Positions 11,028 to 20,271 of a stretch of DNA of 27,101 bases are shown here, piece by piece (positions within the stretch are counted from its first letter, which is position 1; each line of letters starts with the position of its first letter). Origin of the DNA: a virus. The notes beneath the pieces are model-generated. The model was not told the origin of the DNA. It saw nothing but the letters and a program-made list of their open reading frames with translations, and did no database searches. Made by a program: the position numbers and the translations under genes. Where the stretch lies: the IMG/VR virus record IMGVR_UViG_3300047553_000152, positions 1 to 27,101 of that record, one strand, 5' to 3'.

Positions 11028-12005
11028 ATGACAATACTTGTGACTGGCGGCTGCGGCTTTATCGGCAGCAACTTTATTAGATTCCATGCAGAAAAGCATC
11101 CAAACGAGAAGATCGTTAATGTGGATGCTCTTACATATGCTGGCTCAGTAGACATTGACATCCCAAACTATTCATTCTATCGCGCAGACATTGCTGATCA
11201 TCAGATGATGCGCAGTATCATCAATTACGAACGCCCGAGGATTATCTACAACTTTGCTGCTGAGAGTCATGTAGATAACAGTATAAGAAATCCCCTTGTA
11301 TTCGCGCAGACCAATGTAATGGGTACGCTCTCTCTGCTAGAAGCAGCCAGAGTTGTTGGTAACGGTCTGCGGTTTGTTCACATTTCTACGGACGAGGTAT
11401 ATGGAAGTCTTAACCCACATGATGAACCTTTCACTATTCGGAGCCAGTATAATCCTCGGTCTCCTTACTCTGCTAGCAAAGCTAGTTCTGACCATTTCGT
11501 TTCTGCTTATCACCACACTTATGGGATGGATACTGTTATCACTAATTGCAGTAATAATTATGGTCCGTTCCAACACCCTGAAAAACTTATTCCGACGATC
11601 ATAAGGAGAGCCGCAAATGACGAACAGATCCCTATCTACGGCAACGGCACCAATATTCGTGATTGGATTTACGTTGACGATCATTGTCTCGGTGTTTATA
11701 CAGCTGCTCAACTAGGCGTTTCAGGGCAGAAGTATCTGTTCGGTGGAGAGAACCAGATGGCTAATCTGGATATTGCAAAGTTGATTCTCTCCATCATGGG
11801 CAAGAGCGAAAACTTGATTGAGTTCGTCGAGGATCGCAAGGGACACGACTTTAGATACGATATAGATACTAGCGAGTCAAGGAAACTTCTAGGCTGGAAG
11901 CCAGAAGCAAAGTTCCAAGAGGCTCTAGTGAAAACGGTGGATTGGTACAACTCTAATATGGAATGGGTATATTCATGTCTAACAAAACACTCGGAATCAT
12001 TTTAG
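11028..12005 (+). CDS. rmlB: dTDP-glucose 4,6-dehydratase (RmlB)
   Basis: A 325-residue extended short-chain dehydrogenase. The N-terminal NAD-binding loop is TGGCGFIGSN, followed by VNVDALTYAG. The catalytic triplet of the dehydratase is intact: ISTDEVYG (T121, D122, E123) and YSASK (Y147, K151). The substrate stretch NCSNNYGPFQHPEKLIP and the RDWIYVDDHC motif are diagnostic for RmlB. It converts dTDP-glucose to dTDP-4-keto-6-deoxyglucose, the shared precursor of rhamnose and other deoxysugars. It is slightly shorter than the bacterial enzyme. The next gene (RmlA) starts inside its 3' end; here RmlB precedes RmlA, which makes its substrate. Confidence 0.95.
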   Translation: MTILVTGGCGFIGSNFIRFHAEKHPNEKIVNVDALTYAGSVDIDIPNYSFYRADIADHQMMRSIINYERPRIIYNFAAESHVDNSIRNPLVFAQTNVMGTLSLLEAARVVGNGLRFVHISTDEVYGSLNPHDEPFTIRSQYNPRSPYSASKASSDHFVSAYHHTYGMDTVITNCSNNYGPFQHPEKLIPTIIRRAANDEQIPIYGNGTNIRDWIYVDDHCLGVYTAAQLGVSGQKYLFGGENQMANLDIAKLILSIMGKSENLIEFVEDRKGHDFRYDIDTSESRKLLGWKPEAKFQEALVKTVDWYNSNMEWVYSCLTKHSESF

Positions 12006-12868
12006 CGGCAGGACGTTCTTCTAGGCTGTATCCCGCAACCCTAGCCTGCTCAAAGCAGCTTCTTCCGATCTATGATAAGCCTCTAATCTACTATCCACTA
12101 ACTACTCTGATGCTTGCTGGCATCAGAGATTTTGTCATCATCACGAATCCTAAAGAAAAACAAATGTTCGAGCAGCTGTTCGTAGACAGCTATGTCTCTA
12201 TGGGCATTCGTATTCGTTTCTTAGTTCAGGACGAGCCGAAGGGTATCGCCGATGCATTCAGGATCGTACACAATGTTCTGGGCCCAGAGATTGATCCGTA
12301 CGATCGTTATGCGCTCATCCTCGGCGATAACATTTTCCATGGTTCTTCTCTAACTGGTACACTACAGAAGGCCATTGAGCTAGATGATGCTGTAGTCTTT
12401 GCAACTAAAGTCCATGACCCAGAACGATTTGGTGTCGTTGAAGTTGACAAGAAGAACAAAGCTATCTCTATTGAGGAAAAGCCTACCGCACCAAAGAGCA
12501 ACCTAGCAGTCACTGGCCTGTACTTCTATCCAAAAGATGTAATTGAGAAGGTCTACAATCTTCGCCCATCAAGTCGCGGAGAGTTAGAGATCACTGATCT
12601 GAACAATATATACTTGAGCGAACAAAGACTCAGCGTGAATAAGTTGCTTCGCGGTACAGTTTGGTTTGATACTGGTACGCCAGATTCCATGATGGAAGCT
12701 TCGATATTCATTCAGACGTTGCAGAAACAACAGAATATTGCCATAGGATCACCCCATGAGGTTGCGTATACTTCTGGTTGGATTCAGCAATTTGAACTTG
12801 AGATGACTGCTAATCTTTGCTCTAAGACATTTTATGGTAAGTATCTATCAACTCTAACAGAGAACTAA
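11975..12868 (+). CDS. rmlA: Glucose-1-phosphate thymidylyltransferase (RmlA)
   Basis: A 297-residue nucleotidyltransferase making dTDP-glucose from glucose-1-phosphate and dTTP. I choose the ATG at 11975 (MSNKTLGIILAAG) over the in-frame ATG at 11963 because the fold begins with the GIILAAG strand; the overlap with rmlB is 31 bases. Family signatures are the long SKQLLPIYDKPLIYYPL, LILGDNIFHG with the metal-binding Asp, DPERFGVVEVD, EEKPTAPKSNLAVTGLYFY and GELEITDLN. The nucleotide loop reads AAGRSSR where the usual enzyme has GGSGTR, a small departure in a key loop. The remaining active-site motifs are intact, so activity is likely. Confidence 0.95.
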   Translation: MSNKTLGIILAAGRSSRLYPATLACSKQLLPIYDKPLIYYPLTTLMLAGIRDFVIITNPKEKQMFEQLFVDSYVSMGIRIRFLVQDEPKGIADAFRIVHNVLGPEIDPYDRYALILGDNIFHGSSLTGTLQKAIELDDAVVFATKVHDPERFGVVEVDKKNKAISIEEKPTAPKSNLAVTGLYFYPKDVIEKVYNLRPSSRGELEITDLNNIYLSEQRLSVNKLLRGTVWFDTGTPDSMMEASIFIQTLQKQQNIAIGSPHEVAYTSGWIQQFELEMTANLCSKTFYGKYLSTLTEN

Positions 12869-13621
12869 ATGATCTCCCTAGAAACATATACAAAACTGGA
12901 AGAAGCAGCCCTAGAAAACCAGCCATTCGATCATTGTATTATTGACAACTTCTTTGACGAAGAGACTGCTCTAAAGTTAGAGCAAGAGTTTCCTTCGTTC
13001 GATAGTTCCTTGTGGTACTCGTACGATAGCCCACTAGAAGTCAAGAAGACGATGAACTTCTGGGATAGGTTTCCTCCAGCGACGTATAATGCATTCTGGG
13101 ATTTGTGCTCGCCTATGATAGCCAAGTGTCTAGGCAAAAAGTTTCACACCACTCTAGAGGCTGACATTGGCCTTAATGGTGGTGGCTGGCACATTCATGG
13201 CTCTGGCGGTAAGCTTAATGTACACTTGGATTATTCTATACATCCAAAAATTAATAAGCAGCGCAAGCTAAATATTATCATCTATCTTTCTAGAGATTGG
13301 GACCCAGCGTGGGGTGGTGGATTGCAACTCTGGAGTAACAACCCGCAAACTAATAAACCAGACCAGCTGGTAAGAACAGTTGACGTCAAGTTTAACAGAG
13401 CAGTCGTCTTTGATACAACCCAACATTCTTGGCATGGGTTTGCTGGTAAGTTGCAATGTCCAGAAGGAACCTATAGAAAGTCTTTGGCGATCTACTATGT
13501 TCAGAAACCAGATCTCTCCAAGGAAGATAGATATAGAGCGCTCTATGCGCCTTCGAAAGAACAGGAAAATGATCCTGAAGTATTAGAATTAATTGAGAAG
13601 CGTAAAAACATTCAGAGGTAA
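12869..13621 (+). CDS. 2-oxoglutarate/Fe(II)-dependent oxygenase
   Basis: A 250-residue protein directly following rmlA. The double-stranded beta-helix core shows the iron facial triad H119-x-D121 (NVHLDY) and a distal His in QHSWHGF (H186 or H189), then Arg203 in RKSLAIYY, which fits the 2-oxoglutarate-binding basic residue. The GGGLQLW and FNRAVVFDT strands between them are typical of the prolyl-4-hydroxylase-like branch. It should hydroxylate or otherwise oxidise a substrate with O2 and 2-oxoglutarate. Its place in a dTDP-sugar cassette suggests a sugar or glycan-linked target, but this is context only. Phages carry many such oxygenases of unknown substrate. Confidence 0.85.
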   Translation: MISLETYTKLEEAALENQPFDHCIIDNFFDEETALKLEQEFPSFDSSLWYSYDSPLEVKKTMNFWDRFPPATYNAFWDLCSPMIAKCLGKKFHTTLEADIGLNGGGWHIHGSGGKLNVHLDYSIHPKINKQRKLNIIIYLSRDWDPAWGGGLQLWSNNPQTNKPDQLVRTVDVKFNRAVVFDTTQHSWHGFAGKLQCPEGTYRKSLAIYYVQKPDLSKEDRYRALYAPSKEQENDPEVLELIEKRKNIQR

Positions 13622-13624
13622 GAT

Positions 13625-14401
13625 ATGAAGATTCTGGTAGTTGGTCGCGGTTGGGTCGGCAATAAGATGACCGCCGAGTTACGCTCAAGAGGTCATGAAA
13701 TTGACCTAGTGTCACACAAAAAAGCATTCAACGTTGACCCAGAGGCAGAATATGACTGGGTTGTTAACTGTGCAGGCGTTACGGGGTCACCTAACGTAGA
13801 CGCATGCGAAAACGATAAGTTTGCAACGATGAAGGGTAACGTGGTTATGCCTTTGCTGCTGCAAAGACTAGCCGATGAAATTGACGCAAACTTTGCCCAC
13901 TTCTCCAGTGGCTGCATTTACCAAGGCGAAATTGTTGATCCTTGGGCTGAACCGAACTTCTTTGGCAGTACCTACTCACTGAGCAAGGGTGTTTCGGATT
14001 CTTATCTAAAGCATGTTGGTCTGATATTCAGAATTAGAATGCCGTTCACTGGGCTGAACGAGCCAAAGAACTATCTGTCCAAGGTCTTCAACTATGCCAA
14101 GAATGGTAAGCTGGTAGACTCTGGTAAGAACTCTCTGACTGATCTTGACGAAGCAGTCAAGGTGGCATGTAATCTGATTGAAGAGGGAGCAATCGGCCCA
14201 TACAACCTAGTCAACGAAGGTGCTGTTGATATGCATGAGTTGGCTGCGCTGATGGGAGTCGAGCCTCAGTGGTACACACCAGATGAGTTTAAGGCTGCTA
14301 CAGCTTGCGGAAGATCTACTTGCACCATTCCTGGTGATAAGTTGATGCGCCCAGTTAAGGAAGCTTTGGCTGACGCAATAGCAAAAATGAAAAATGCCTA
14401 A
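13625..14401 (+). CDS. RmlD-like NAD(P)-dependent sugar-nucleotide reductase or epimerase
   Basis: A 258-residue short-chain dehydrogenase. The nucleotide loop is VVGRGWVGNKM, with the acidic or basic selector following the second strand (IDLVSHKK). VVNCAGVTGSPNVDACE and HFSSGCIYQGE match the RmlD pattern, and Y117-SLSK121 is the catalytic YxxxK. It probably reduces a 4-keto-deoxysugar nucleotide made by RmlB. It is shorter than the usual RmlD (about 300 residues) with a small substrate domain. An epimerase or reductase of a different dTDP-sugar is possible. It ends the sugar cassette. Confidence 0.75.
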   Translation: MKILVVGRGWVGNKMTAELRSRGHEIDLVSHKKAFNVDPEAEYDWVVNCAGVTGSPNVDACENDKFATMKGNVVMPLLLQRLADEIDANFAHFSSGCIYQGEIVDPWAEPNFFGSTYSLSKGVSDSYLKHVGLIFRIRMPFTGLNEPKNYLSKVFNYAKNGKLVDSGKNSLTDLDEAVKVACNLIEEGAIGPYNLVNEGAVDMHELAALMGVEPQWYTPDEFKAATACGRSTCTIPGDKLMRPVKEALADAIAKMKNA

Positions 14402-14404
14402 ATA
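14398..14404 (+). promoter_or_regulatory. Possible late promoter (CTAAATA)
   Basis: CTAAATA ends the RmlD-like gene and lies 31 bases before the start of the internal-protein-like module. T4-type late promoters have TATAAATA about ten bases upstream of the transcript start, and this is a one-base variant of its last seven bases. The same string also occurs inside genes by chance (for example in gene 43 and gene 41), so support is weak and mainly positional. Confidence 0.3.
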
Positions 14405-14435: not shown

Positions 14436-14468
14436 ATGTTAAAGTTCAAGAGTTTTCTCTCAGAAGCC
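14436..14468 (+). other. Capsid-targeting-like signal and protease junction 1
   Basis: Codons 1-11 encode MLKFKSFLSE/A. T4 internal proteins start with a similar decapeptide (lysine, aromatic, hydrophobic, then I/L-x-E), which targets the prohead and is removed by gp21 after the Glu. The matching pattern and its recurrence at 17266 and 20834 are seen here; the function is inferred. Confidence 0.6.
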
Positions 14469-15569
14469 AAATCAGAAGCAGGTGGTATCCTACACCTGGA
14501 ACATCCAGCAGACAGACTATTTGATGGACCTGAGGCCACCGCTCACGCAATCAAAACTCTAAGAGGCATTGTCAGTGGCCGAGTACCAATTACTCGTAAG
14601 ATCGACGACAAGATGTCGTTCCATGCTATTCGCCGCCAAGACGGTAAGGTCGGCGTCAAGTATAAAGGCTCTGGCGCCACCTACAATTTTAGCCAGTCAG
14701 ATATTGACCAGCAGCATGCTGATAAACCATATCTGGCAAATACACTCAAACACGTTCTAAAGCACATTGGTAAAGTTCTACCAGACGATCCTGGTGAGTA
14801 TCAGGGTGGGTATATGTCCACGCCTGAGGATAGAACACAGCATGGTGCTTATATAAGTCATACACCAAACACAGTTCAATACATGGCGCATCAAAATACC
14901 CCAGAGGGAGCCAGACTAAAAGCGTCAAAATTAAGCGTAACAATACACAGTAAATTAACAGGTCAAAATAGAACTGCCGAGCCTATTACAGATACTTCAG
15001 CGTTCAAAGAACACCCAGATGTTCATATGGTAAGACATACAGTAGATCCATTAGAAAGACAGTTAACTGCATATCATAAACAAGAAATAGTAGACAATAT
15101 TAGGCAGGCTGAGACATTATTAGATACACACGATCACAGTCATCATGAAGGTCATGCAGAAACACTACGTTCATACATTAATTCTACAGTAAGCAGCGGC
15201 GAGGCTCCCTCTGTTCAAGGTTACAAGACGCATTTAGAAATTAAGCATAACAAGCAAATAGAAAAGCTGAAGTCTGACAAAGGTAGGGCTGCGGCTGAAC
15301 AAAAGAAAATGGCGATTCTTAATCACGTTGATAAGAACGCAATGAAATTCAAAAAGACTTTAGCTATCCATGGTCATCTTCAGACTGCGGCAAATAAATT
15401 ATCTGATGCAATTAATCGCAATGGTTCTGGCGGTTTCATTACAAAAATGAATGGCATAATCGGTGGTGGCGAAGGCTTCGTGGGTGGTGGTCTTAAGATA
15501 GTAAACAGAACTGAGTTTACACGCCAAAATAACATGCGTAGAGAAATGCTGAGAGCACAAAATGAGTAA
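14436..15569 (+). CDS. Capsid-targeted ligase-like (nucleotidyltransferase-fold) protein
   Basis: A 377-residue protein with a likely capsid-targeting N-terminus, MLKFKSFLSE, then A11 (junction L-S-E/A). Residues about 20-130 resemble a phage family (as I recall annotated DUF6267) with the layout of an ATP/RNA-ligase adenylation domain: KIDD (K55-D58) in place of the usual KxDG, VKYKGSGATYN as the second strand pair, and EYQGGYM (121-127) where related phage proteins have a YQGDLM-like motif. The rest is helical and charged, ending with a glycine-rich segment. The changed Gly58 and acidic motif make catalysis doubtful. I infer that it is packed in the head and perhaps acts on DNA ends, or is a structural remnant. 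Confidence 0.7.
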   Translation: MLKFKSFLSEAKSEAGGILHLEHPADRLFDGPEATAHAIKTLRGIVSGRVPITRKIDDKMSFHAIRRQDGKVGVKYKGSGATYNFSQSDIDQQHADKPYLANTLKHVLKHIGKVLPDDPGEYQGGYMSTPEDRTQHGAYISHTPNTVQYMAHQNTPEGARLKASKLSVTIHSKLTGQNRTAEPITDTSAFKEHPDVHMVRHTVDPLERQLTAYHKQEIVDNIRQAETLLDTHDHSHHEGHAETLRSYINSTVSSGEAPSVQGYKTHLEIKHNKQIEKLKSDKGRAAAEQKKMAILNHVDKNAMKFKKTLAIHGHLQTAANKLSDAINRNGSGGFITKMNGIIGGGEGFVGGGLKIVNRTEFTRQNNMRREMLRAQNE

Positions 15570-17544
15570 AGCAACGTTCACTTTTGGTCGCTTTAACCCT
15601 CCGACTGAGATCGGTCATGGTAAACTCATCGACGCAGTTAAGGCGCATGCTGAGAAGACTGGTGGGCAACACTACATCTTCCCATCGCACACACAAGATA
15701 AAAAGAAAAACCCTCTGACGCATAGCGATAAAGTTGGCGCTATGCGTAGTATGTTCAAGGATACGAATGTAGTTTCTGATCCTGGAATCCACTCAGCTAT
15801 CCATGCCATGCAACATCTGCAGAGACAGGGTCACGATCACGTGACTATGGTGGTTGGTTCTGATAGAGTCGAGAACTTCAAGAAGCTTCTCAATGACTAC
15901 AATGGCAAAGAATACAACATCAAGAATATAGAAGTCAAGTCAGCGGGACATAGAGACCCAGACGCCGAAGGTGCTTCTGGTATGTCAGCATCAAAGCTGA
16001 GAGATCTGGTCAAGGCTGGCAAGAAAGACGAGTTTATTAGTCACTACTCCAATAGAAAGTTGGGCGAAAAAATCCACGATAAGGTACATAAAGCAATGAA
16101 CGAATCAGTTAAGGCCATGTTTATCATGGGTGGCCCTGGAAGCGGTAAAGATTACGTTATCAATAACATCCTCAACAGGTTTGACCTGGTAGAAGTTCAG
16201 TTGGATCAAATCCTAACTGGATCTGCCAGAGAACTATTAGAGTCTAATGCCAACCTTCTGATCAACGCACCATCTGACATGGAAAAGATTGAGCTAGTTC
16301 GCGCAGCTCTAGGCGAAGACTATGAGTATCTCTACACTCTAGTTTCAGTTACCAACAAGGTCAGCCGCGAAAGAAACGAAGATAGAACGAAGCCTATGAA
16401 CGAATCAGTTCGTATTCGTAAGTGGATAGACGCGGAAAATACAGTTAACAAGTTTGAGAACATGTTTGTGTTCAAGAACTCTATCAATCTGAAAGAGGCA
16501 TCAGAGTCAGAGCTAGAATCTTTCAAAGTTCAAATTGCTGACTATCTTGGTTTCTGTGTTGGCAATGGCCTTGAAATGAACGAAGATCTAAGAACGTGGT
16601 TCAAGCAAAAGTGGGTTAGATTTGATACCAAAGGAAAGATTAAAGGTGACTGCGCCAGAGAAGAAGGCGAGGGTAAGCCAAAGTGCCTACCCAAAGCGCA
16701 AGCACAAAATATGTCCAAGAGAGATAGAGCGAAAGCAGCGCTGAGAAAAAGAAGACAAGATCCTAATCCAGATCGTCAAGGCGCACCAATTATGGTAGCG
16801 ACAAAAGAAGAAGTTGTACTGGAAGCAAACAAGCCAACAAACCCTGAACTTTGGAGCAAAGCAAAGAGCTTGGCTAGACAGAAGTTTGATGTCTATCCAT
16901 CGGCATATGCTAATGGTTGGGCTGCCAAGTGGTACAAGTCCAAGGGTGGTGGTTGGAAGAGCGTTTCAGAATCTACTGATGAACTAGATGAAGCCTGCTG
17001 GAAAGGATACAAGGCTGTTGGAATGAAGATGAAGAATGGTCGCAGAGTTCCTAACTGCGTTCCAGTCGGAGAAGCCACGGTAGATCCTGCTGATCAACTA
17101 GATGTTAACACACAACCAACTCTAGTGGCTGCTTCTGAAACAAAGAAAAAGAAAAAACTAAAAGTTCCACCGAATGATATCAACGCCAGAATTGACGGCG
17201 CTGGTGGATATTCAATTGGCGGACTAACTCAAACATCATCAGTTTATTCTGAAGAGGAAGAATCAATGCTAAAGTTCAAAGATTTCGTAAATGAAGCCAC
17301 ACATAACGGCAGAGAAGTTCCTCTAAATAAGCCTATGAAGGGTGATGTTAAAAAGTCCAAGGTGTATGTGAGAGACCCATCGACTGGAAACATCAAGAAA
17401 GTAAACTTCGGTGATAAGAGCCTCTCAATTAAGAGCCACATTCCTGCTCGTAAGAAGTCGTATTGCGCGAGATCTGGCGGACAAGGAAATACAACAGATA
17501 AGACCAAGGCTAACTATTGGTCGCGCAGAGCATGGAAGTGCTAG
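15562..17544 (+). CDS. Modular polyprotein: NMNAT-like domain, P-loop kinase-like domain and small basic modules
   Basis: A 660-residue mosaic overlapping the previous stop by 8 bases. Residues 1-165 are a cytidylyltransferase/NMNAT-like domain: GRFNPPTEIGH (one residue longer than the usual TxGH loop), VVGSDRV and MSASKLR. Residues about 184-300 are a P-loop domain (GGPGSGKD, 190-197). Then come small modules: a DTKGKIKGDC...KCLP cysteine module (about 355-400), a FDVYPSAYANGWAAKWYKSK module (about 428-465), a CWKGYKAVGMK...NCVP module (479-501), and an RKKSYCARSGGQG...RRAWKC end. Most are preceded by a hydrophobic-x-E junction followed by A or S (E181, E281, E312, E421, E477, E504, E578). 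The first two domains together recall NadR, but the kinase substrate is unknown. I infer prohead-protease processing and packaging. Confidence 0.8.
   Translation: MSKATFTFGRFNPPTEIGHGKLIDAVKAHAEKTGGQHYIFPSHTQDKKKNPLTHSDKVGAMRSMFKDTNVVSDPGIHSAIHAMQHLQRQGHDHVTMVVGSDRVENFKKLLNDYNGKEYNIKNIEVKSAGHRDPDAEGASGMSASKLRDLVKAGKKDEFISHYSNRKLGEKIHDKVHKAMNESVKAMFIMGGPGSGKDYVINNILNRFDLVEVQLDQILTGSARELLESNANLLINAPSDMEKIELVRAALGEDYEYLYTLVSVTNKVSRERNEDRTKPMNESVRIRKWIDAENTVNKFENMFVFKNSINLKEASESELESFKVQIADYLGFCVGNGLEMNEDLRTWFKQKWVRFDTKGKIKGDCAREEGEGKPKCLPKAQAQNMSKRDRAKAALRKRRQDPNPDRQGAPIMVATKEEVVLEANKPTNPELWSKAKSLARQKFDVYPSAYANGWAAKWYKSKGGGWKSVSESTDELDEACWKGYKAVGMKMKNGRRVPNCVPVGEATVDPADQLDVNTQPTLVAASETKKKKKLKVPPNDINARIDGAGGYSIGGLTQTSSVYSEEEESMLKFKDFVNEATHNGREVPLNKPMKGDVKKSKVYVRDPSTGNIKKVNFGDKSLSIKSHIPARKKSYCARSGGQGNTTDKTKANYWSRRAWKC
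17254..17298 (+). other. Embedded ribosome binding site, ATG and capsid-targeting-like signal
   Basis: Inside the 660-residue frame, GAGGAAG (17254-17260) sits five bases before an in-frame ATG at 17266. That ATG begins MLKFKDFVNE/A, nearly identical to the N-termini at 14436 and 20834. The site could start a separate 92-residue protein (17266-17544) or mark an old gene fusion. Confidence 0.6.
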
Positions 17545-17553
17545 GGGATAAAA

Positions 17554-18054
17554 ATGATTGACAAATCAGCGATTAAAAAGAAACTTATTGAAAGAAAGAT
17601 GAACGAAGCAGTAGAAGATGCCGCTCTAGTCACTCAGCTGAACAAGGTTCTAGCTGACACCATGATCTTTTATTTCAAGGCGCATAGCTTTCATTGGAAC
17701 GTAGAAGGTCCAAACTTCAACGATTACCATGCATTCTTTGCCACCGTTTACACTCAGACGTTCGCTAACCTAGATCCTCTAGCTGAATACGTTCGCCAGC
17801 TTGGTCAGTATGCGCCAAGTTCACTTGGCCAGCTGATCAATACGGCAAATCTGGTGGAACTAAATGGTAAGCCATCTGGTCCAACCGCGATGTTTAGCGC
17901 ACTCAAGGCTGACAATGACAATATCATGATTGGCCTTGGAGTCTGCCGCAGAACTGCCGAACAGGGTGGATTCTCAGACATCGCTAATTTCCTAGATGAA
18001 ATGATCTCGGCTCATAGAAAACTGGGCTGGATGCTAGACTCACTTCTTAAATAA
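17554..18054 (+). CDS. dps: Dps-like ferritin with intact ferroxidase site
   Basis: A 166-residue four-helix protein of the Dps family (DNA protection during starvation), with a ribosome binding site GGGGATA before its ATG. The diagnostic stretch is FHWNVEGPNF followed by DYH and LDPLAEYVRQLG. The dinuclear iron residues H47, H59, D74 and E78 have exactly the spacing of E. coli Dps (H51, H63, D78, E82). It should form a dodecamer that oxidises and stores iron with peroxide. The N-terminus is lysine-rich (KKKLIERK), then MNE18/A19, which fits a DNA-binding tail or a protease junction like those in its neighbours. It lies between two polyprotein-like genes, which suggests a virion-packaged role. 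Confidence 0.93.
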   Translation: MIDKSAIKKKLIERKMNEAVEDAALVTQLNKVLADTMIFYFKAHSFHWNVEGPNFNDYHAFFATVYTQTFANLDPLAEYVRQLGQYAPSSLGQLINTANLVELNGKPSGPTAMFSALKADNDNIMIGLGVCRRTAEQGGFSDIANFLDEMISAHRKLGWMLDSLLK

Positions 18055-18066
18055 GGTTTAACTAAA

Positions 18067-20271
18067 ATGGCTGTAAAAGTTCCACCACTACTTCACAAGA
18101 TGTCACTGACTAGCCAGAGAGCATGGTACAATAAGAATGCTCCTGACCAGATGCCACCTCACTTGACTACATCAGTAGCAAAGTCGAAATCTGCTAATAC
18201 TGCTGCTCAGCGCGAAAAGGCTAAGAAAGCAGAAGCCCAGGGTCTCAAGGCTTATGGTGCTACCAGAGGAACGGCAACTGGTGGAGAAGGTGGAAACGCT
18301 GACGCTGCTCCAAGAGATACTATTGCTCCGCTAACACCAGAACAGCATGCAAGAAAAGATGCTGAAGCGAGAAAAGCAGCAGCGGCAGCGAAAGCAGCCA
18401 AACCAGTAAGGGAAAAGAAGCCAAAAGCTGTTAAAGCTGCACCACAAAAACCTGTCGATAGACTAGCGTTAATTGCTGCAGCAGCTAAGAAGTCAAGATC
18501 AGCTGCAGGAAGAGCCAAGGCTGCTGCCAAGTTTGACGTTCCTACTGAAGATCCAGATGATCAGGGACACGACGACTATCTAGATCAGCATTATGGAATG
18601 CACCACTACAAAGAAGAAATAGAGGAAACACAAATGGATGATATCTCAGAAGGTAAGATGGGCGAGCTACATGCCGATCTAGTCAGACAAGCCAAGGGTA
18701 TTGCTTTTGGAAAGCGTTACAAAGAAGGCAACATGACTGGTGCATACAAGGCTATTCAGGCTTTGGGCAAGAAGCATGGTATGGAAAATCTTGCTGATCA
18801 TCCAGAAGTTTCTTCTGCGCTTCAGAGAGCCAACGAAGAAGTTGAGTCGGTTGATGAAGCTGCAAAGTGGAGAGAAAATCCTGCTGCACATAATTATGAT
18901 ACTGATGGAACTATACTCCCAAAAACACATGGAAAGATCGACAAGTTGCAAGCAAGAAGTGAGTATTTGTCTAGGGCAAAGGCGCATATTAACAAACTTA
19001 AAAATCCTAAGAATGCCAGAAAACAATTGCAAGCATATGCAAAATCTGCAATAAAGATGTATGGAGAAGAAGTTGAGCTCGAAGAAGCTGCTTACACAGG
19101 CAAGGGAAACCACAGACCAGGTTGGATGCTTCGTGCTGATCCTGAGTTGAAGAAAAAAGTTGACGCAAATATCAAAGCCGCAAAACTTCGCAAGAAGTAC
19201 ATGGGTAAGACTGGCGAAGAAATTGCTGCTATGAAGAAGGAAGAAGTTGAGCTTGACGAAGCTAAAGACTCTCCATTCATTACCTTCTTCAATACAATTG
19301 CGAATCGTCATGCTGAGTATGCAAAGTATGCGAAGAATAAGAAAGACGCAGCTACTTTCGCTGGTGCAGCTGAAAGAGCAAAACATGCTGCTAAAATGAT
19401 AGAAGCTGGAAAATCGCACGTAGAAGCTATGGCCCATTATGATAATAAGAAAGCCACAAATGAAGAAGTTGAGCAAGTCGATGAGGTAAATTCTCGCCAC
19501 AGCTTTACTTCAGCCCAGGCTGCACTAACACCAAAGTCTTCTGACGTCAAGGCTGCTGTTGGTGCAACTGCCAGAGATAAAGCAAAGACTAACAAATATG
19601 CTCGTCGTATATCAAAAATTACTGGCGGTGAGTATTCGAAACAAGATGTCAAAGATAACCTAAAGAGTCTTGCTAACGAAGAAGTAGAGCAGATTGAAGA
19701 AGCAAGAGTAAACCATCGCGATTTCGCAACAGATGGTGTTATGCATCCTAGCATGGCAAATCATGCTTCTATGAAGACTGGCAATACTACCGATTTTTAC
19801 AGTTCAAAGGATGGCGATAAACTCACTAATGGTAAGGTCATCAAGAACGACGGCAAGCATGTACACATAAGACACGATGGTGAAGTTCACAAGTTCCGCG
19901 TATCAGCAACTGCACCTCACCAGATGCAGTCTGAAGAAGTCGAGTACATTGAAGAAAAACTATCTGCTTCTGATCCTGCCTCAGCATGGATTCATGACTT
20001 CGTACGTTCGAACAATCCTAAATTCTCTGGCAAGACCAAAGAAGAAAGAAAGAACATGGCTCTAGGCGCATACTATGCGGCCAAGAGAGGTAAGGGTATG
20101 AAGGAAGAAGTAGAGCAGGTTGAGGAATCAAGCCACGAAGGTTCTACGCCAACAACAGATAAAGAAAAAGAACTAGCTGCTCATCATGGCGATCCAAAGA
20201 AGATTACCTATGGCGATGTAGTCAAGGCAAGAATCAAATCTGCCAGAGGTGGTAAGAAGAATGGCAATTAA
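18067..20271 (+). CDS. 734-residue basic modular polyprotein with repeated EEVE-type linkers
   Basis: A very long, basic, mostly helical protein. Residues 40-155 are Ala/Lys-rich like histone H1. From about 183 on, small modules are divided by seven linkers of the form EEVE-x-(V/I/L)-(D/E)-E, ending at E264, E340, E398, E473, E545, E630 and E687 and usually followed by A or S. Modules include one ending HPEVSSALQRAN (about 196-256), GNHRPGWMLRADPELKKKV (about 347), a beta-rich segment with HVHIRHDGEVHKF (about 597-610), and a SAWIHDFV...FSGKTKEERKNMALGAYYAAKRGKG module (about 638-677) that I recall from other phage virion proteins. Each linker fits the T4 gp21 protease consensus (I/L-x-E). 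I infer a precursor cut inside the prohead into several peptides. No catalytic motif is seen. Confidence 0.8.
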   Translation: MAVKVPPLLHKMSLTSQRAWYNKNAPDQMPPHLTTSVAKSKSANTAAQREKAKKAEAQGLKAYGATRGTATGGEGGNADAAPRDTIAPLTPEQHARKDAEARKAAAAAKAAKPVREKKPKAVKAAPQKPVDRLALIAAAAKKSRSAAGRAKAAAKFDVPTEDPDDQGHDDYLDQHYGMHHYKEEIEETQMDDISEGKMGELHADLVRQAKGIAFGKRYKEGNMTGAYKAIQALGKKHGMENLADHPEVSSALQRANEEVESVDEAAKWRENPAAHNYDTDGTILPKTHGKIDKLQARSEYLSRAKAHINKLKNPKNARKQLQAYAKSAIKMYGEEVELEEAAYTGKGNHRPGWMLRADPELKKKVDANIKAAKLRKKYMGKTGEEIAAMKKEEVELDEAKDSPFITFFNTIANRHAEYAKYAKNKKDAATFAGAAERAKHAAKMIEAGKSHVEAMAHYDNKKATNEEVEQVDEVNSRHSFTSAQAALTPKSSDVKAAVGATARDKAKTNKYARRISKITGGEYSKQDVKDNLKSLANEEVEQIEEARVNHRDFATDGVMHPSMANHASMKTGNTTDFYSSKDGDKLTNGKVIKNDGKHVHIRHDGEVHKFRVSATAPHQMQSEEVEYIEEKLSASDPASAWIHDFVRSNNPKFSGKTKEERKNMALGAYYAAKRGKGMKEEVEQVEESSHEGSTPTTDKEKELAAHHGDPKKITYGDVVKARIKSARGGKKNGN
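18621..18654 (+). other. Second embedded ribosome binding site and start
   Basis: AGAGGAA (18621-18627) lies six bases before an in-frame ATG at 18634, which encodes MDDISE/G. The short peptide ends in I-S-E/G, a gp21-type junction. It could start a shorter product (residues 190-734) or mark a former gene boundary. The evidence is weaker than at 17266. Confidence 0.4.
18835..20127 (+). repeat. Seven dispersed copies of an EEVE-type linker motif
   Basis: Protein-level repeat copies are encoded at 18835-18858, 19066-19086, 19240-19260, 19462-19485, 19678-19701, 19933-19956 and 20104-20127. Five have the form EEVExφ(D/E)E and two lack the x (EEVELEE, EEVELDE). Distances between copies are about 170-255 bases (58-85 residues). 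The codons vary between copies, so this is not a recent DNA duplication; the protein motif appears to be kept by selection. Confidence 0.85.

Follow-up and report, generated by a model that had tools for sequence, protein, structure and literature searches.

A 734-residue modular protein of a probable T4-like phage is predicted to be a polyprotein divided by prohead-protease-type linkers

Does a phage protein in which one acidic motif keeps returning work as a single chain, or is it the precursor of several products? The question is raised by a 734-residue protein encoded in an IMG/VR record of 27,101 bases; the stretch analyzed here (the window) is this entire record and therefore probably only part of a larger T4-like phage. 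An earlier note, made from the letters alone, had described seven linkers of the form EEVE-(x)-[VIL][DE]E ending at E264, E340, E398, E473, E545, E630, and E687, and exactly these were recovered in an intact ORF, together with an eighth, degenerate linker at residues 183 to 195 that it had missed. When the protein's residues were shuffled 20,000 times, 19,994 of the resulting sequences contained no linker, six contained one, and none contained more. Pieces between linkers were 57 to 85 residues long, in keeping with the roughly 55 to 85 residues first described, apart from a 47-residue tail. The chain is basic as a whole (pI 9.3), but its modules, which range from pI 6.3 to 9.7, are not all so. 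The hydrophobic-x-Glu sites of linkers 1 to 7 are followed by A, A, A, V, A, K, and S, respectively, hence mostly by Ala or Ser (5 of 7), as had been claimed. The proposed match to the T4 consensus I/L-x-E was strict in four of the seven and in the degenerate linker (ISE/G), with Val at P3 in the sites at 264, 473, and 687. Codons, said to differ between copies, do so after the EEVE half, which is itself near-invariant (GAA GAA GTN GAG in 7/7). The gene and its parts are as follows.

18067..20271, plus strand: 734-residue modular precursor, a predicted polyprotein; intact ORF, dN/dS 0.18 against the relative L001
18067..18651, plus strand: module 0 (residues 1-195), N-terminal, Ala/Lys-rich, without CTS; related N-termini in L132, L059, L072, and L101
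18613..18651, plus strand: degenerate linker 0, EEIEETQMDDISE/G (residues 183-195), with a strict I-S-E/G site
18835..18858, plus strand: linker 1, EEVESVDE/A (E264), junction of the module loss in L001
18859..19086, plus strand: module 2 (residues 265-340, including its own linker), absent in L001
19066..19086, plus strand: linker 2, EEVELEE/A (E340), in L001 joined to the linker 1 position
19240..19260, plus strand: linker 3, EEVELDE/A (E398)
19462..19485, plus strand: linker 4, EEVEQVDE/V (E473)
19678..19701, plus strand: linker 5, EEVEQIEE/A (E545), where L001 carries an extra module
19702..19956, plus strand: module 6 (residues 546-630), predicted small beta structure, with homologs in L102, L100, L083, and phage Cr30
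19933..19956, plus strand: linker 6, EEVEYIEE/K (E630)
19957..20127, plus strand: module 7 (residues 631-687), predicted helical, in 22 other ORFs among the matches listed
20104..20127, plus strand: linker 7, EEVEQVEE/S (E687)

No part of the protein matched Pfam or PHROG (E 0.01), and neither a peptidase nor a recognized domain was found in these searches. Queried whole by tblastn against cultured phages, it gave no match; single-module queries did find modules of related chains. No CTS was found at the N-terminus (MAVKVPPLLHKMSLTSQ). The gene is under purifying selection, as dN/dS with L001 was approximately 0.18 over shared codons. In AlphaFold models, modules 6 and 7 show predicted folded cores and low-confidence linkers. 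Module 6 (mean pLDDT 83) had a core at 89 to 96 forming a small beta structure and a linker at about 50, and module 7 was helical, with pLDDT of 85 to 92 over residues 1 to 40 and a linker at 44. Searches of PDB folds returned no significant match for either, module 6 being weakly like small SH3-type barrels.

Module gain and loss was examined in L001, a 48-kb contig that is the closest relative among the matches listed and encodes an orthologue of 735 residues from a 94%-identical gene. In the gene alignment, L001 lacks a 231-nt stretch of the window gene (a linker plus module 265-333), and it carries an extra module, LKNSTLADYIIKAGEE...KLAN, with a linker of its own, inserted between SLAN and EEVEQIEEARV. 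All junctions of both differences lie on GAAGAAGTNGAG linker DNA, and the linkers are thus joints of cassette exchange. Other T4-like phages also contain such modules, in changed orders, and module 7 has different neighbors among its 22 other ORFs. The 197-kb genome G057 encodes a 677-residue protein with five linkers between different modules and a C-terminal module like that of the window protein. Among modular proteins, 33% of HSP ends fell in linkers vs. 13% at random positions (SD 2%; interval test), and the stricter exact-boundary test (three residues) gave a weak result at the N side, as the linkers themselves belong to the alignments. Persistence of the linkers in relatives had been named beforehand as the point on which the polyprotein idea would stand or fall; linkers persist, and module content and order vary.

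A DNA pattern for EEVEQ[VIL][DE]EA recovered at least 120 viral stretches, compared with 34 stretches, one with two copies, in bacterial and archaeal genomes totaling 257 Gb; as the pattern required Ala at P1', the P1' statistics of this set were not used. Viral loci among the matches listed held 208 linkers in 128 proteins, with Val at P3 in 35% and GAA as the first two Glu codons of EEVE in 96%, against a 76% background. The alternative GAGGAGGT would make a perfect Shine-Dalgarno, and avoidance of internal starts may explain this GAA bias.

Conservation at module boundaries was also examined without requiring EEVE. Directly before the STLGSY-type module, [ILV]-x-E occurred in 32/32 distinct sequences (I 18, L 12, V 2), and residues further upstream varied. 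At the module 7 boundary it was in register in 17 of 20 copies and within two residues in the other three, and the boundary of the NKEN module carried hydrophobic-x-Glu in 5/5. Homologous copies of a module are not independent, and the weight rests on the agreement between unrelated modules. Before these, only the last three residues, hydrophobic-x-Glu, are constant, while the EEVE half varies. A cultured example is found in the T4-like Caulobacter phage Cr30, whose 682-residue protein AGS80949 (PHROG 5709, annotated hypothetical; L139:5762-7810, equal to KF301602 29635-31683) contains four copies of one module family with hydrophobic-x-Glu sites between modules. It resembles the window chain in its repeated, related modules with this core between them and differs in its linker wording, which is ESEN-L-x-E. 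Its linkers before the STLGSY-type module read ENLEE/, EELDE/, EALDE/, and MRSKILAE/, and Cr30 offers a tractable test system for the modular chains.

Modules bounded by linkers in one phage are also encoded as stand-alone genes with T4-type capsid-targeting (CTS) leaders in others. One module occurs in three contexts: MISFKDFIDE/GKRGLWDNIHAKRKRI (L096), TTEEVEQIEE/AKPGLYANIHAKKKRI (L088), and MKSFKQFVAE/EKPGLWANIRAKRERI (inside a 614-residue protein of L001). Similarly, the leader MVPFKTFISE/ in L133 takes the place of the linker EEIEIDE/ in L119, and the stand-alone MLKFKEYFEE/ATHQGREVP of L115 corresponds to an internal MLKFKDFVNE/ATHNGREVP in the window's 660-residue protein. Leader end and linker end therefore seem interchangeable, which makes the strongest sequence argument for one enzyme cutting both. 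The CTS signal is located on neighboring and stand-alone genes. By pattern, a CTS-like N-terminus was not commoner on linker proteins (6%) than on other ORFs of the same contigs (7%), although hydrophobic-x-Glu within the first 16 residues was found in 36% of the former vs. 18% of the latter. The other ORFs gave 88 leader-pattern matches, including DUF6267 proteins and cytidylyltransferases, and not all of these are convincing.

These comparisons bear on whether the linkers are cut at all. If they were merely flexible acidic spacers whose DNA acts mainly as a recombination joint, with the chain working intact in virion or cell, the unusual uniformity of EEVE DNA and the location of the L001 junctions inside it would follow. 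Moreover, hydrophobic-x-Glu was not depleted inside modules relative to chance; depletion would be expected if stray cuts were harmful, which counts against strong selection to avoid them. Such sites are also present in folded enzymes, and the motif alone is therefore no proof of cutting. What is conserved across phages, however, is the last three residues at the protein level and not the EEVE DNA, the core being unchanged in the differently worded linkers of Cr30 and in the CTS leaders of homologous stand-alone modules. We consider an uncut chain quite improbable and, judging from these sequences, cutting of the linkers by a prohead protease likely.

Cleavage by T4 gp21 takes place after L/I-x-E (PMC9026906). 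Of the relatives among the matches listed, all nine with genomes longer than 140 kb carried both an S77 gp21 and a gp23. The 27-kb window, itself a fragment, yielded no gp21, gp23, or head genes, and no gp21 was found on the L001 contig, also a fragment. Candidate L/I-x-E sites, assigned by position in the sequence, were present in 17 of 18 MCP N-termini and V-x-E in the remaining one, so that Val at P3 is rare in these putative sites compared with 3/7 window linkers. The core conserved in the linkers, hydrophobic-x-Glu, by this comparison corresponds broadly to the T4 gp21 cleavage rule, which the putative MCP sites appear to follow too. L002 and L003 each encode a linker protein between gp20 plus a small ORF, which we take to be gp67-like from its position and what is generally known of T4 gp67, and gp21, gp22, and gp23. 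The G057 protein that immediately follows gp20, between gp20 and gp21, has two linkers. Weak matches to PHROG 683 place two of the small head-operon proteins in one family. The T4 prohead-protease connection suggested at the outset thus gained support from the hydrophobic-x-Glu core, the putative MCP sites, the CTS-led stand-alone modules, and the linker proteins between gp20 and gp21. The accompanying proposal, that at least eight packaged peptides result, stays a prediction.

Linker proteins inside head operons also invite a reading in which the chain belongs to the prohead core or scaffold, as a disposable component of the gp22/gp67/gp68 kind, its gp21 fragments leaving to make room for DNA and none serving as payload. 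T4 gp22, gp67, and gp68 are cut by gp21 into several fragments, which mostly leave the head (PMC9026906), and the linker proteins of L002, L003, and G057, including the two-linker protein directly after gp20, occupy the gp67/gp68 position. The window gene, however, adjoins CTS-led enzymes and is not in the head cluster, its modules are folded and highly diverse, and stand-alone CTS versions of such modules exist. Rapid cassette turnover is also more like internal proteins than scaffold. We regard a disposable core as rather unlikely, yet with T4 core fragments mostly departing, the window pieces may either stay or leave.

The neighborhood of the window gene was compared with that of cyanophages. 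The precursor gene sits between helicase and primase-like genes, not between gp20 and gp21, and the following features accompany it.

14398..14404, plus strand: CTAAATA, late promoter-like motif that precedes the first CTS gene by 38 nt
14436..15569, plus strand: DUF6267 protein with CTS-like leader MLKFKSFLSE/A
15562..17544, plus strand: cytidylyltransferase/P-loop protein, C-terminal half also module-built; PHROG matches to separate small families along its length
17266..17295, plus strand: internal CTS-like peptide MLKFKDFVNE/A in the preceding ORF; stand-alone version in L115
20834..21295, plus strand: protein with CTS-like leader MLKFKEYLNE/S, with an orthologue in L001

CTAAATA, which we take to be a cyanophage-type late promoter-like motif, occurs seven times on the plus strand of the window and not at all on the minus strand, with about three expected per strand. 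Candidate sites in the ORF at 15562..17544 are VLE/A 421, LDE/A 477, VGE/A 504, and VNE/A 578. Cyanophages share the gene order DUF6267-like, cytidylyltransferase, the place of the precursor, and later DUF7207-like, primase, and ribonucleotide reductase. At the window gene's place, their clusters carry S-CAM22 gp185, with linkers EEVEVEE/G and EEVEQVDE/A, or SSM1_191, with EEVENVEE/G. The syntenic cyanophage cytidylyltransferase has the leader MKKFSAFLNE/A and belongs to group T4-GC190, which is reported to have been detected in purified S-SM1 virions (PMC3037559).

A position among replication genes (helicase, primase) would suit a modular accessory protein of an ordinary kind, one that stays unpackaged and has sites resembling those of gp21 by coincidence. 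We give this reading almost no credence, since CTS leaders are present on the cluster neighbors and the cytidylyltransferase among these has a syntenic counterpart that is a virion protein. In addition, the cluster is preceded by a late-type motif, and relatives encode linker proteins in the head operon.

Several smaller observations concern the same cluster. At 17242-17295, the internal ATG of MLKFKDFVNEA is closely preceded by an SD-like GAAGAGGAAGAA, and the C-terminal module may additionally be translated on its own. Between 15562-17544 and L001:1885-3729, the C-terminal half differs in module content, the last CTS-led module being exchanged. A Dps/ferritin-like gene at 17554-18054 has an N-terminal extension ending in the leader-like KKLIERKMNE/A, and its product might be a packaged DNA-binding protein.

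The explanation we favor, and hold to be fairly probable as a whole, is a prohead-targeted precursor cut in trans by gp21, its pieces acting as internal proteins and its linkers as evolutionary joints. The gene product would be a chain of small, independently folding modules joined by flexible, acidic linkers, with a gp21-type site, hydrophobic-x-Glu, at the end of every linker. Built first into the prohead core, the chain would be processed in trans by an S77 prohead protease that the phage itself encodes in another part of its genome, yielding about eight or nine pieces. All of these, or a subset, would stay behind in the capsid as internal proteins and may accompany the DNA into the next host; we see the chances of such retention and delivery as about even. 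The linker DNA, being short and conserved, would be where unequal recombination adds, deletes, or swaps whole modules in frame. Targeting, cleavage, retention, delivery, and any module function are what we infer, and by analogy we would expect the modules to have early host-directed or DNA-associated roles. A broader reading, which we put forward tentatively and with somewhat less than even confidence in its parts taken jointly, is that prohead cargo in the T4-like phages of natural waters is organized as a general cassette system. Any small folded module with hydrophobic-x-Glu would then serve as cargo, released by gp21 and injected. Modules would come either as leader-bearing stand-alone genes or inside linker chains, giving each phage a quickly exchangeable set of early-acting peptides, with true polyproteins as their precursors and processing in trans.

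To our knowledge, no tailed phage is known in which the head-maturation protease processes a multi-product polyprotein in trans, and no such trans-processed modular precursor was described in the literature we searched. Partial parallels exist. T4 IPI-IPIII and Alt are small proteins brought into the prohead core, cut after L/I-x-E, and poorly conserved between phages, and their CTS-type leader is also found on neighboring genes in the window. The T4 internal proteins, however, are single-product genes with one N-terminal cut, in contrast to the many modules, repeated internal sites, and missing N-terminal CTS of the window chain. T4 gp22, gp67, and gp68 would resemble it in multiple cutting, and linker proteins hold the gp67/gp68 position in some relatives, but these core proteins are not known as exchangeable folded cassettes. 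Lacking an N-terminal CTS and lying outside the gp67/gp68 position, the window chain is not assigned to the T4 internal-protein system or to the core system, although it would work in a similar way to both. The long N-terminal propeptides of head proteins in giant phages (SPN3US gp53/gp54, phiKZ) receive several prohead-protease cuts per chain (PMC10052503); there, the propeptide alone is chopped, one mature protein results, and the motif in SPN3US is A-x-E. Polyvalent proteins such as P1 DarA/DdrB are multi-module, thought to be packaged and injected, and have been compared to RNA-virus polyproteins (Iyer et al. 2017, PMC5512222). They are predicted to be released by an embedded peptidase and contain known enzyme domains, neither of which was found in the window chain, where the protease would act in trans.

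If the proposed precursor is real, many unannotated proteins of T4-like phages could be read as processed cargo whose true N-termini are predictable from the linkers, and existing virion spectra could be searched again for these N-termini. A cut site that doubles as a recombination joint would also help explain the fast diversification of injected anti-host proteins.

Elsewhere in the window, an ORF at 2098-2661 has an HNH-like start (HHIIPRHMGG..NLVELTVEEHADAH) and is probably a homing-type endonuclease. Between the helicase and the CTS cluster, 11028-13621 contains dehydratase-like and nucleotidyltransferase-like sugar-nucleotide genes and a 2OG-oxygenase-like ORF. All large genes are on the plus strand, and a perfect 12/12 sigma-70 consensus promoter, TTGACA-17-TATAAT, lies on the minus strand at 21727-21699.
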